Shown: positions 46,032 through 49,308 of the stretch, piece by piece
How the letters are laid out: the number at the start of each line of letters is the position of its first letter
Numbering within the stretch: the first letter of the stretch is position 1
DNA from: Acidaminococcaceae bacterium
Lineage (GTDB): Bacteria; Bacillota; Negativicutes; Acidaminococcales; Acidaminococcaceae
NCBI GenBank assembly: GCA_944390935.1
Contig: CALXRU010000005.1
Coordinates: 1-64,000, forward strand
Direction of reading: 5' to 3'
Length of the DNA: 64,000 nt
Position numbers and translations under genes: made by a program
Notes under the pieces: generated by a model
Database searches by the model: none
What the model was told of the DNA's origin: nothing
What the model saw: the letters and a program-made list of their open reading frames with translations, nothing else

Positions 46032-47225
46032 TTAAAGTTTTTCTGTTTCATTATTTTCAATTTGCTCCTGCGGCTCGTCAAAATCATTTTCAAAGCTTTC
46101 TGCCTGATACAATTTTTTGTTAATCACGCGGCTGCGGCGTTCTGCCGCTTCAATATGCCCGCTGGCTTCCTGCAATTTTTTGCGCGTTTTATCAAGCAGC
46201 GCCGCAAAAACGGTAAAGTCCTGCTTGACACCGGCAATAATACGCCACACTTCGCCGGTGCGTTTTTCTATCGCCAAAGTGCGGAAGCCAACCTGCAAGC
46301 TGTTTAAAAGCGCCGCCAGCGTCGTCGGACCGGCCACGCACACGCGGTATTTGCGCTGTAATTCTTCCAACAGTCCGGTAATGTTCACCGCTTCGGCAAA
46401 AAGCCCTTCCGTCGGCAAATACATCACGGCAAAATCAGTGCTGTACGGTGGGCAGATGTATTTGCTGTTAATATCGGCGGCTTCGCTTTTAAAGCGTTTT
46501 TCAAGCTGCTTTAAAGCTGCGTCGGCAGCAGTGGCATCGGCGTTTTCGCGCGCTTCCAAAAGACGCTGGTAATCCTCCTGCGGAAACTTGGCGTCTACCG
46601 GCAGCCACACAGTCTGCTCACTTTTGCCCGGCAGCTTCAGCGCAAACTCCACGCGTTCCGCAGAACCGGGTTTAACAGCGACGTTTTCTGCGTACTGTTC
46701 CGGCGCAAGCATATCCTGCAGCAGCACTTTAAGCTGCATTTCGCCCCAAATGCCGCGGTTTTTAACATTGCTTAAAATGCGTTTTAAATCGCCAATGCCG
46801 CCCGCAAGGCTCTGCATTTCGCCTAATCCTCTATGCACTTCTTCAAGCCTCCGGCTGACAAGGCTGAAGCTTTCACCCAAACGGCGTTCCAAAGTTGCGT
46901 TTAATTTTTCATCGACGATAGCGCGGATTTGTTCTAAGTTTTTCTCGGTTGATGACCCGATTTTATCAAAGCGTTTATCAAGCTGCTCGCTTAACCTATC
47001 CGCCGCCGACTGGTTTTCCAATCGCGCTGCTCTCGCAAGTGTTGCCTGCTCATTGCGCAAATCACGCAAGCCTTCGTACATACGCCGCTCCGTCGCCTCA
47101 AACTGGCGGACAATCTCCAGCAAATCACTTTCATCTACAGCATTGCTGCGATTGCGGTACAGCACAGCCAAAACAACCAACTGCAAAACTATTATTAAAA
47201 TAAGTATTATCATCTTTAAATCCAT
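46032..47225 (-). CDS. rmuC: DNA recombination protein RmuC
   Basis: 397 residues. One N-terminal transmembrane helix (about 3-22) is followed by a long coiled coil (30-160) and the RmuC nuclease-like domain (NRGIWGEMQLKVLLQDML, VDAKFPQEDYQRLLEA, FAVMYLPTEGLFAEAV, RTLAIEKRTGEVW). It limits DNA inversions at short inverted repeats in E. coli. The ATG at 47225 lies seven bases after GAAAGG. The gene starts only 49 bases after the last CRISPR repeat and in the same direction, so array transcripts run into it. No convincing own promoter was found. Confidence 0.92.
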   Translation of the reverse strand: MDLKMIILILIIVLQLVVLAVLYRNRSNAVDESDLLEIVRQFEATERRMYEGLRDLRNEQATLARAARLENQSAADRLSEQLDKRFDKIGSSTEKNLEQIRAIVDEKLNATLERRLGESFSLVSRRLEEVHRGLGEMQSLAGGIGDLKRILSNVKNRGIWGEMQLKVLLQDMLAPEQYAENVAVKPGSAERVEFALKLPGKSEQTVWLPVDAKFPQEDYQRLLEARENADATAADAALKQLEKRFKSEAADINSKYICPPYSTDFAVMYLPTEGLFAEAVNITGLLEELQRKYRVCVAGPTTLAALLNSLQVGFRTLAIEKRTGEVWRIIAGVKQDFTVFAALLDKTRKKLQEASGHIEAAERRSRVINKKLYQAESFENDFDEPQEQIENNETEKL

Positions 47226-47274
47226 AGTTAAACCTTTCGTAAAATAAAAAAGTATCAAAATAAAAATTATCCAT

Positions 47275-47440
47275 ATTTCAACCCACACCGTACTGCGTAC
47301 GGCGACATGCCGCTGTTAGCCTTAAAGACGCGGCAAAAATATTTCAATCCACGCCGTACTGCGTACGGCGACAGTATATCCATTATTTGTGGATTGAAGC
47401 ACTGAAAATTTCAATCCACGCCGTACTGCGTACGGCGACA
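47275..47440 (-). CRISPR. Three-repeat type I-C-like CRISPR array without cas genes in the window
   Basis: Three 33-base repeats at 47275-47307, 47341-47373 and 47408-47440, separated by two different spacers of 33 bases (47308-47340) and 34 bases (47374-47407). On the minus strand the repeat starts GTCGC and ends GTGGATTGAAAT, the known type I-C pattern, with a 7-bp stem GCCGTAC / GTACGGC around TGC. The repeats at 47341 and 47408 are identical; the one at 47275 has two changes (in the ATTGAAAT-proximal part), as expected of a terminal repeat far from the leader. Transcription is therefore minus-strand, toward rmuC. No cas gene is present in the 64 kb. Confidence 0.9.
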
Positions 47441-47622
47441 GCATAGAAACAAAAACTATTAAAAATCACGTTTAATTTTATAAATGTGCGAACAACATAA
47501 CATAAAACATTTAAATCATTAAAATGTATATCACAACAATATGTTCACTTGATCTTCGCACAAAATAACTTTCATCATTTTTACTTATTTATTTTAACAT
47601 TTTACGGTTATTTTGACAAAAT
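47441..47622 (-). promoter_or_regulatory. AT-rich CRISPR leader with candidate promoter
   Basis: About 180 bases, strongly AT-rich, with no gene. A candidate promoter TTATGT (47500-47505), 17 bases, TATAAA (47477-47482) would start about 30 bases before the first repeat. An inverted repeat TGTGCGAA (47485-47492) / TTCGCACA (47555-47562) has one arm in the spacer of that promoter. Confidence 0.6.
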
Positions 47623-47676
47623 AAAATGCTCCCTTTAACAAGCGATTGGTTATCACTGTTTTAAAGAGAGCATTTT
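47623..47676 (-). terminator. Terminator of the glycolytic operon after ggt
   Basis: Arms AAAATGCTC..CTTTAA and TTAAAG..GAGCATTTT around a 22-base loop, followed on the minus strand by TATTTTGTC. It lies 18 bases after the ggt stop and separates the operon from the CRISPR leader. Confidence 0.8.
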
Positions 47677-47694
47677 AATTTTTGTATTATGTTT

Positions 47695-49308
47695 TCACCA
47701 CACAGCAACCATGCCGTCGGCGCGGGGTTCGGTTGCGCCGGCAAGTACGCCGTCGTCGCTGCGCCAAATCATCTGGCCGCGTCCAAAGTCGATGAAATCA
47801 TCGGTTACAATCAGCTCGTGCCCGCGTGCGCGCAGTCCGTCGATAATCTCCTGTCCCACGCTTGCTTCAATCATAACTTTTTTGCCTTCAATCCACTGCC
47901 AGCGCGGGCAGTCCAGCGCTTCCTGCGGATTCATGCCAAAGTCAATAACGTTGTGCATAACCTGCAAATGCCCTTGCGGCTGCATGTAACCGCCCATTAC
48001 GCCAAACGGACCGACAGCTTTGCCGTCCTTTGTCAAAAAGCCCGGAATAATTGTATGGTACGGCTTTTTCAGCGGCACAAGATAATCGTCGTGCTGCGGG
48101 TCCAGCGTAAAGCCGGACGCCCTGTCGTTGAAGGCAATGCCATAGCCCGGCACAACTATGCCGCTGCCGAAGCCCTGAAAATTGCTCTGGATATACGAAA
48201 CCATATTGCCGTCGCCGTCGGCCGTGCACAGGTAAACCGTGCCGCCGCAAAACGGATTGCCCGGCTGCGGCAACAATGCCTGTTCGCCAATCAGCGCGCG
48301 GCGCTGCGCCGTATATTCGTCGCTCAAAAGCTCTTTAACCTGCGCCTTCATATAACGCGGGTCGGCAACGTATTTGCGCCCATCGGCGTAAGCCAGCTTC
48401 ATCGCTTCAATTTCGTGGTGCAGGTTTTCCACGCAGTCCTTTCTGTCGTGCGCAAAACCCTTTAAAATATTCAGCGCCATTAAAGCCACAATGCCGTGCC
48501 CGTTAGGCGGCAGTTCCCACACGCGGTAGCCGTGGTAATCAATACTGATTGGCTCTACCCACTCCGCACGGTAATCCGCCAAATCGCTTTTGCGTATATA
48601 ACCGTCCGTAGCCTGCGAAAACTTGTCGATAGCGTCTGCCACTTCGCCGCGGTAAAATGTTTCACCGTAGCTTTCGGCAATCAACCGCAAGGTTTTGGCA
48701 TGATGCGGCAGTTTGGCAACAGTGCCTGCTACCGGTGTTTTGCCGTCAACGGTAAAGGTATCAAACCACGCCTTAAAGGCTTCATTATTTTTGTAAGGCT
48801 CGAAAACAGCCAAGCCTTGATGCCACAAGCGGCTGATGACCGGCGATACCGGATAGCCGTTTTCGGCATATTCAATGGCAGACGCAAACAAATCGGCAAA
48901 TGGCAGCTTGCCAAAGCGCTTATGCAGCTCTGCCCAGGCAGATACAGCGCCCGGAACGTCAACGGATTCCCAGCCGCGTTCCGGCATTTCCGTTTTGCCT
49001 TTTAAAGCAGGGCAATCCGGCGTAAGCCGTGCCGGTGCATAACCGCTGCCATTCAAGCCGTACAGTTTGCCGTCAACCCACACCTGCGCAAAAGCGTCGC
49101 TGCCCAGACCGTTGCTGGTCGGCTCCACAACCGTCAGCACAATGGCTGTGGCAATGGCTGCGTCAATAGCGTTGCCGCCTTTTTTTATCATTTCCAGCCC
49201 GGCCTGTGCCGCCAGCGGCTGGCTGCTGCAAACCATGCCCTTTGTGCCGTACATTACGCTGCGGCGCGAAGGGTATTTGTATTTTAACGGGTCAAAACCA
49301 AAATCCAT
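47695..49308 (-). CDS. Gamma-glutamyltransferase family protein, without signal peptide
   Basis: Ntn hydrolase of 537 residues. The autoprocessing threonine is in NPFCGGTVYLCTADGDGNMVS, in pieces (CGGTVYLC). The N-terminal GGNAIDAAIATAIVLTVVEP and SNGLGSDAF and the C-terminal GVMGGYMQPQGH fit the family. There is no signal peptide, so it should be cytosolic, unlike classical exported GGT. It stands 14 bases after eno and appears to share the glycolytic transcript; the ribosome binding site (GGGGCG) is poor. The substrate is unknown: gamma-glutamyl peptides or a cephalosporin acylase-like amide. Confidence 0.85.
   Translation of the reverse strand: MDFGFDPLKYKYPSRRSVMYGTKGMVCSSQPLAAQAGLEMIKKGGNAIDAAIATAIVLTVVEPTSNGLGSDAFAQVWVDGKLYGLNGSGYAPARLTPDCPALKGKTEMPERGWESVDVPGAVSAWAELHKRFGKLPFADLFASAIEYAENGYPVSPVISRLWHQGLAVFEPYKNNEAFKAWFDTFTVDGKTPVAGTVAKLPHHAKTLRLIAESYGETFYRGEVADAIDKFSQATDGYIRKSDLADYRAEWVEPISIDYHGYRVWELPPNGHGIVALMALNILKGFAHDRKDCVENLHHEIEAMKLAYADGRKYVADPRYMKAQVKELLSDEYTAQRRALIGEQALLPQPGNPFCGGTVYLCTADGDGNMVSYIQSNFQGFGSGIVVPGYGIAFNDRASGFTLDPQHDDYLVPLKKPYHTIIPGFLTKDGKAVGPFGVMGGYMQPQGHLQVMHNVIDFGMNPQEALDCPRWQWIEGKKVMIEASVGQEIIDGLRARGHELIVTDDFIDFGRGQMIWRSDDGVLAGATEPRADGMVAVW

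Follow-up and report, generated by a model that had tools for sequence, protein, structure and literature searches.

Anatomy of the CRISPR array upstream of rmuC

The window, i.e., the whole stretch of DNA analyzed here (64,000 nt of genome G000, whose host is an uncultured Phascolarctobacterium), carries on its minus strand the gene rmuC and, upstream of it, a short CRISPR array, an AT-rich leader and a predicted promoter. The locus was compared with its counterparts in five congeners (G001 to G005). G000, G003 and G004 are metagenome bins, with a completeness of 88.8% for G000 and of 93 and 89% for the other two. The features of the locus are as follows, from the promoter toward the gene.

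47591 to 47619, (−) strand: predicted promoter of rmuC (TTGTCA-N17-TAAAAT, second hexamer preceded by TG), located upstream of the leader
47440 to 47584, (−) strand: type I-C leader, ~145 nt, AT-rich, upstream limit approximate
47555 to 47562, (−) strand: leader dyad arm TGTGCGAA, complementary on reading of the sequence to TTCGCACA at 47485-47492
47478 to 47492, (−) strand: leader motif TTCGCACATTTATAA, 53 nt before repeat 1, fitting the pattern TTCGCACWTTTATAA exactly
47408 to 47439, (−) strand: repeat 1 (leader-proximal), exact match
47373 to 47407, (−) strand: spacer 1, 35 nt, contains TTCAATCCAC
47341 to 47372, (−) strand: repeat 2, exact match
47307 to 47340, (−) strand: spacer 2, 34 nt, with partial, probably chance matches only
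47275 to 47306, (−) strand: repeat 3 (distal), 2 mismatches, both also in the G003 distal repeat
47233 to 47237, (−) strand: Shine-Dalgarno sequence AAAGG of rmuC
46032 to 47225, (−) strand: rmuC coding sequence, 397 aa (PF02646, E 2.4e-69)

The array (47275-47439) comprises three 32-nt repeats at spacings of 66 and 67 and two spacers of 35 and 34 nt, and thus shows the near-identical repeats (at least three) and unique spacers of constant length that define a CRISPR. An earlier note, made from the letters of this stretch alone, had described three 33-base repeats, two spacers and a degenerate distal repeat; the numbers of repeats and spacers and the degeneracy (the two mismatches at 47275-47306) agree with our analysis, but the unit kept across species is 32 nt long (GTCGCCGTACGCAGTACGGCGTGGATTGAAAT). 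The gap between the distal repeat and the rmuC ATG (47223-47225) is 49 bases, as the note had stated, and the PF02646 match bears out its gene assignment. Orthologues of rmuC were found in all five congeners. An RT-associated RmuC model also matches the protein weakly (E 1e-7), besides the general family, which we do not take as evidence that RmuC is a known defence protein.

The repeat has the form of type I-C repeats (5′-GTCGC, a palindrome and 3′-GTGGATTGAAAY), with ends equal to those of the G002 and G005 arrays that adjoin I-C cas genes. With up to one mismatch, its 13-mer CGTGGATTGAAAT has two occurrences in the window versus 0.11 expected from shuffles. Elsewhere in the assembled G000 genome, no copy of the whole repeat was found even with three mismatches allowed; since the repeat is confined to the rmuC locus, it is not a dispersed repeat, and the search for a larger array with the same repeat, which the earlier note had proposed, came back empty. 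No CRISPR repeat family was matched by Rfam in the region, the sole sub-threshold hit being a miRNA family on the terminator hairpin, which was judged implausible. The repeat pattern had no match in viral contigs.

Seven of the eight spacers found at this locus in three species (see below) were searched against viral contigs (exact matches of 20-24 nt), phage records or both, and spacer 1 of G000 also against plasmids. These searches returned partial, chance-level matches at most, and spacer 1 matched nothing in the phage, plasmid or viral collections at the search sensitivity applied. Two candidates for spacer 2 were rejected: a 20-nt match to a 310-kb viral contig covers only the first 21 of its 34 nt and has TCA in front of it instead of TTC, and matches to four T1-type phage records (86%, E 0.4) were taken as chance.

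The leader and the locus among congeners

The 15-nt motif TTCGCACWTTTATAA has one copy each in G000, G002, G003, G004 and G005, always within an I-C or orphan leader, and its distance to the repeat is 53 nt in the orphan leaders and in the G002 and G005 I-C leaders alike. No copy was found in G001, and neither were cas5c and cas8c. A dyad of TGCGAAG followed by TTCGCAC is also common to the orphan leader and the I-C leaders of G002 and G005. When the orphan leaders were compared with the G005 I-C leader, 0, 1 and 0 of 300 shuffles scored as high, which strongly supports homology; the comparison with the G002 I-C leader gave 6, 12 and 6 of 300 (moderate support), and the controls (type II array flanks and reversed leaders) scored no better than shuffles. 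The array thus has a leader homologous to the I-C leaders of the genus. Its motif and motif distance, common to the I-C leaders of the congeners, mark it as a genuine I-C-type leader and so substantiate what had been noted as an I-C-like array with an AT-rich leader. The position of this homologous leader on the upstream side of the array supports an orientation toward rmuC, again as the earlier note had it.

The order of leader, array and rmuC is identical in G000, G003 and G004, at nearly the same distance from rmuC, and in a set with one genome per species the repeat pattern matched two uncultured Phascolarctobacterium bins, namely G003 and G004. At this one locus, the repeats are kept in all three species while all eight spacers differ (two in G000, two in G003 and four in G004), a variation of spacer content among relatives that is itself characteristic of CRISPR. 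The leader-proximal repeats are intact and identical in G000 and G003, with intact stems. Both changes in the G000 distal repeat recur in G003, indicating that the distal repeat is old and shared. New spacers enter at the leader via copying of the first repeat, and in G004 the three leader-proximal repeats carry a G-to-A change that the two distal repeats do not; together, these indicate that the G004 lineage gained at least two spacers.

In G001, G002 and G005, the rmuC site is without an array, and I-C loci lie elsewhere in G002 and G005. A tree of seven concatenated genes places G002 outside the array-bearing trio with 100% support; we did not retain this placement, as site counts trace its signal almost wholly to the last 2 kb of the alignment, probably recombined in G002. 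Without this stretch, the four close species (G000, G002, G003 and G004) form an unresolved star, with G005 and G001 more distant, and G002 may represent either an empty ancestral site or a deletion. The stretch in question, near the enolase locus on G002 contig 1 (L091), diverges strongly from the three close species, suggesting recombination or transfer.

Promoter and transcript of rmuC

The best promoter-like match in the region, TTGTCA-17-TAAAAT (10 of 12 positions), lies upstream of the leader, and its −35 and −10 hexamers are unchanged in the three array-bearing species. A promoter of the same form is predicted before rmuC in array-less G002 and one of the form TTGCCA-17-TAAAAT in array-less G005, with a distance from the −10 to the rmuC ATG of 39 nt (G002) and 43 nt (G005) versus 365, 363 and 498 nt in G000, G003 and G004, respectively. 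The I-C leader stretches of G002 and G005 do not contain TTGYCA-17-TAAAAT. Since the same sequence stands ~40 nt before rmuC in these two array-less genomes and none of the I-C leaders tested contains it, we assign this promoter to rmuC and not to the CRISPR leader. At the other end, ACGAAAGGTTTAA at the rmuC ribosome-binding site is identical in G000, G002, G003 and G004. On the simplest reading of these sequences, leader and array were inserted downstream of the rmuC promoter and ahead of the ribosome-binding site.

A scan of 47180-47720 revealed no site resembling an intrinsic terminator, in agreement with the earlier observation that no terminator separates the array from the gene. A single RNA, started at the rmuC promoter, probably carries both the array and the rmuC message. 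The earlier note had proposed such a single transcript and had further suggested that it ties rmuC expression to CRISPR leader activity; the first part appears likely from the sequence, whereas the second should probably be reversed, with the array depending on the rmuC promoter, given that array-less G002 and G005 have the same promoter ~40 nt before the ATG.

Two side observations concern this promoter region. The upstream neighbour of rmuC is a gamma-glutamyltranspeptidase gene in G000 versus an S-layer-like/porin-like gene (identified by eye) in G002, G003 and G004 (examined in 47618-47681 of the window and in L013, L014 and L015). This break falls between the terminator hairpin and the rmuC promoter, implying that promoter, array and rmuC stayed together through the rearrangement. 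In addition, TGTTAAAATAAATAAGTAAAAAT of the promoter region recurs exactly after a hairpin elsewhere in three congeners (L102, L103 and L104, at G003:C1:45720, G002:C1:106487 and G004:C93:2819); these 25-nt matches are an AT-rich stretch with TGTTAAAATAAAT after a hairpin and not another array.

cas genes, alternative explanations and the role of the array

Our cas search across the genomes covered cas5c (TIGR01876), cas8c (TIGR01863) and cas1. Neither cas5c nor cas8c was found in the assembled G000, G003 and G004 genomes, and both are present in G002 and G005, i.e., in two of the three array-less congeners; G002 has a complete I-C operon (cas3-5c-8c-7-4-1-2) with an array alongside. The only two cas1 genes of G000 are both type II and lie beside Cas9 on another contig, and no cas1 was found in G003 and G004. 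As the assembled G000 genome (88.8% complete) yielded neither cas5c nor cas8c nor an I-C-like cas1, the locus is an orphan I-C-type array and not a complete I-C system, consistent with the label 'orphan' in the earlier note; in G000, G003 and G004 alike, it is a conserved locus without adjacent cas genes. Separately, contig 2 of G000 contains two type II systems ~38 kb apart (L060:10758-18640 and L061:10191-15350), both with Cas9 (1068 and 1050 aa), Cas1, Cas2 and an array of ~65-nt period, and one with a Csn2-like protein. The repeats of these arrays are unlike that of the rmuC array.

We consider it likely that the locus is a satellite (orphan) type I-C array with a genuine I-C leader, situated inside the rmuC 5′UTR, with the gene's own promoter on one side and its ribosome-binding site on the other. 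From a start just downstream of the promoter at 47591-47619, RNA polymerase would transcribe the leader, the repeats and the spacers and continue into rmuC, yielding a single mRNA with a 5′UTR of ~360 nt as opposed to ~30-35 nt without the array. The spacers would have been acquired separately in each species, and from this we infer that an I-C adaptation module (Cas1-Cas2-Cas4) was once present in these lineages or acted from a mobile element; the module appears to be gone from the sampled genomes now. As Cas5c is missing, cleavage of the repeats into crRNAs probably does not occur, leaving the array a dormant memory. Should an I-C operon re-enter, each repeat hairpin would presumably be cleaved by Cas5c, freeing crRNAs and trimming the rmuC mRNA. 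On our analysis, a dormant memory, usable once an I-C operon is regained, is the likeliest role of the array, in parallel to E. faecalis CRISPR2 supplied with cas9.

Several other explanations were weighed. The array may be a plain decaying relic that shares a transcript without consequence and is heading for loss, as has perhaps already happened in G002. It is short throughout (2-4 spacers), lacks I-C cas genes and has a degenerate distal repeat, and its leader is only slightly less diverged among the three array-bearing species than the fourfold-degenerate sites of rmuC (~83% versus 74-76% identity, the leader figure being inflated by AT-rich composition). However, decay fits poorly with the intact leader-proximal repeats and stems, the spacer gain in the G004 lineage and the retention of the array at one site in three species, and we regard a relic as possible but doubtful. 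Alternatively, the I-C operon could be present and have been missed in incomplete bins, the array then being a normal second array belonging to a functional system. The bins are indeed incomplete, and the differing spacers imply that adaptation was active after the species separated. Random loss of the locus from all three array-bearing bins would have a chance of ~1 in 1000 if independent; binning often drops defence loci, possibly systematically, which makes this figure a caution and no proof. Against a missed operon stand the contrast between three of three array-bearing genomes without cas5c and cas8c and two of three array-less congeners with them, and the single copy of the leader motif in each array-bearing genome, at rmuC, so that no second I-C leader was seen. 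We hold this explanation to be unlikely.

The remaining alternatives concern the relation of the array to rmuC. CRISPR leaders usually contain promoters, and this one may contain its own, missed by the scan. On reading the sequence, GATAAT directly follows the distal repeat and could start a separate rmuC transcript, in which case leader-driven array and gene would be mere neighbours. Between the array and the rmuC ATG, the scan revealed nothing promoter-like, and in three species the rmuC promoter has been kept upstream of the leader, so we find separate promoters quite unlikely. Less credible again is a Cas-free regulatory RNA or regulatory rmuC 5′UTR, acting through hairpins or housekeeping RNases in the manner of Listeria RliB. 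Its position between promoter and gene would suit the array to such a task, and the 5′UTR folds more stably than shuffles (z −4.25), but three palindromic repeats lead one to expect this and the CRISPR hairpins alone account for it. Likewise, TTCAATCCAC in spacer 1 is exactly complementary to the repeat 3′ end and could form a 10-bp hairpin with repeat 1, an event with a chance of ~0.5% among eight spacers (a rough hand estimate) and a pairing that RliB shows as well; it is confined to the G000 species and not conserved. Length and spacers also vary among species, and three congeners live without the array. Regulation of rmuC by the array independently of Cas is thus possible but unsupported, and we give very little credence to the array being a cis-acting switch on rmuC, in which the hairpins, together with Cas5c cutting when an I-C operon is present, would set mRNA stability or translation.

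The nearest precedents for the satellite array that we favour are CRISPR2 of E. faecalis and RliB of Listeria. CRISPR2 of E. faecalis is an orphan type II array that functions only when cas9 of a related locus is supplied (PMC4894674). It too is a cas-less array at a fixed locus with varying spacers, in genomes often without the matching cas genes; it differs in being type II rather than I-C and in having repeats identical to those of the cas-bearing locus, whereas the stem of the rmuC array differs from the I-C repeats of the congeners. From that report, CRISPR2 is not known to lie inside the 5′UTR of a protein-coding gene. Listeria RliB, a stand-alone RNA processed by PNPase, has a terminator and a promoter in its own leader (PMC3886909); it resembles the rmuC array as a cas-less array at one locus across species, with a leader homologous to that of a cas-bearing system and repeat-spacer pairing; unlike RliB, the rmuC array has no terminator before rmuC, and its promoter appears to be that of the gene. 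The I-C loci of G002 and G005 share with it the repeat ends (GTCGC...GTGGATTGAAAT), the leader motif and the motif distance. Their palindrome is not that of the rmuC array (GCTGCCC/GGGCAGC against GCCGTAC/GTACGGC), and, unlike it, they have long arrays (50 repeat ends counted in G005) and adjacent cas genes and are not located at rmuC.

Orphan CRISPR arrays are common and poorly explained, and the rmuC array is a real and conserved instance of a kind already known, made somewhat unusual by its location. If it did act as a switch, a nuclease-like gene that restricts DNA rearrangement would serve as the readout of CRISPR status. Within a single genus, the locus offers a natural comparison between three species with an array in the rmuC 5′UTR and two in which the same promoter immediately precedes the gene. 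Two questions thereby become testable, namely whether the promoter of a host gene can sustain an array, and whether Cas processing of such an array alters the host mRNA.
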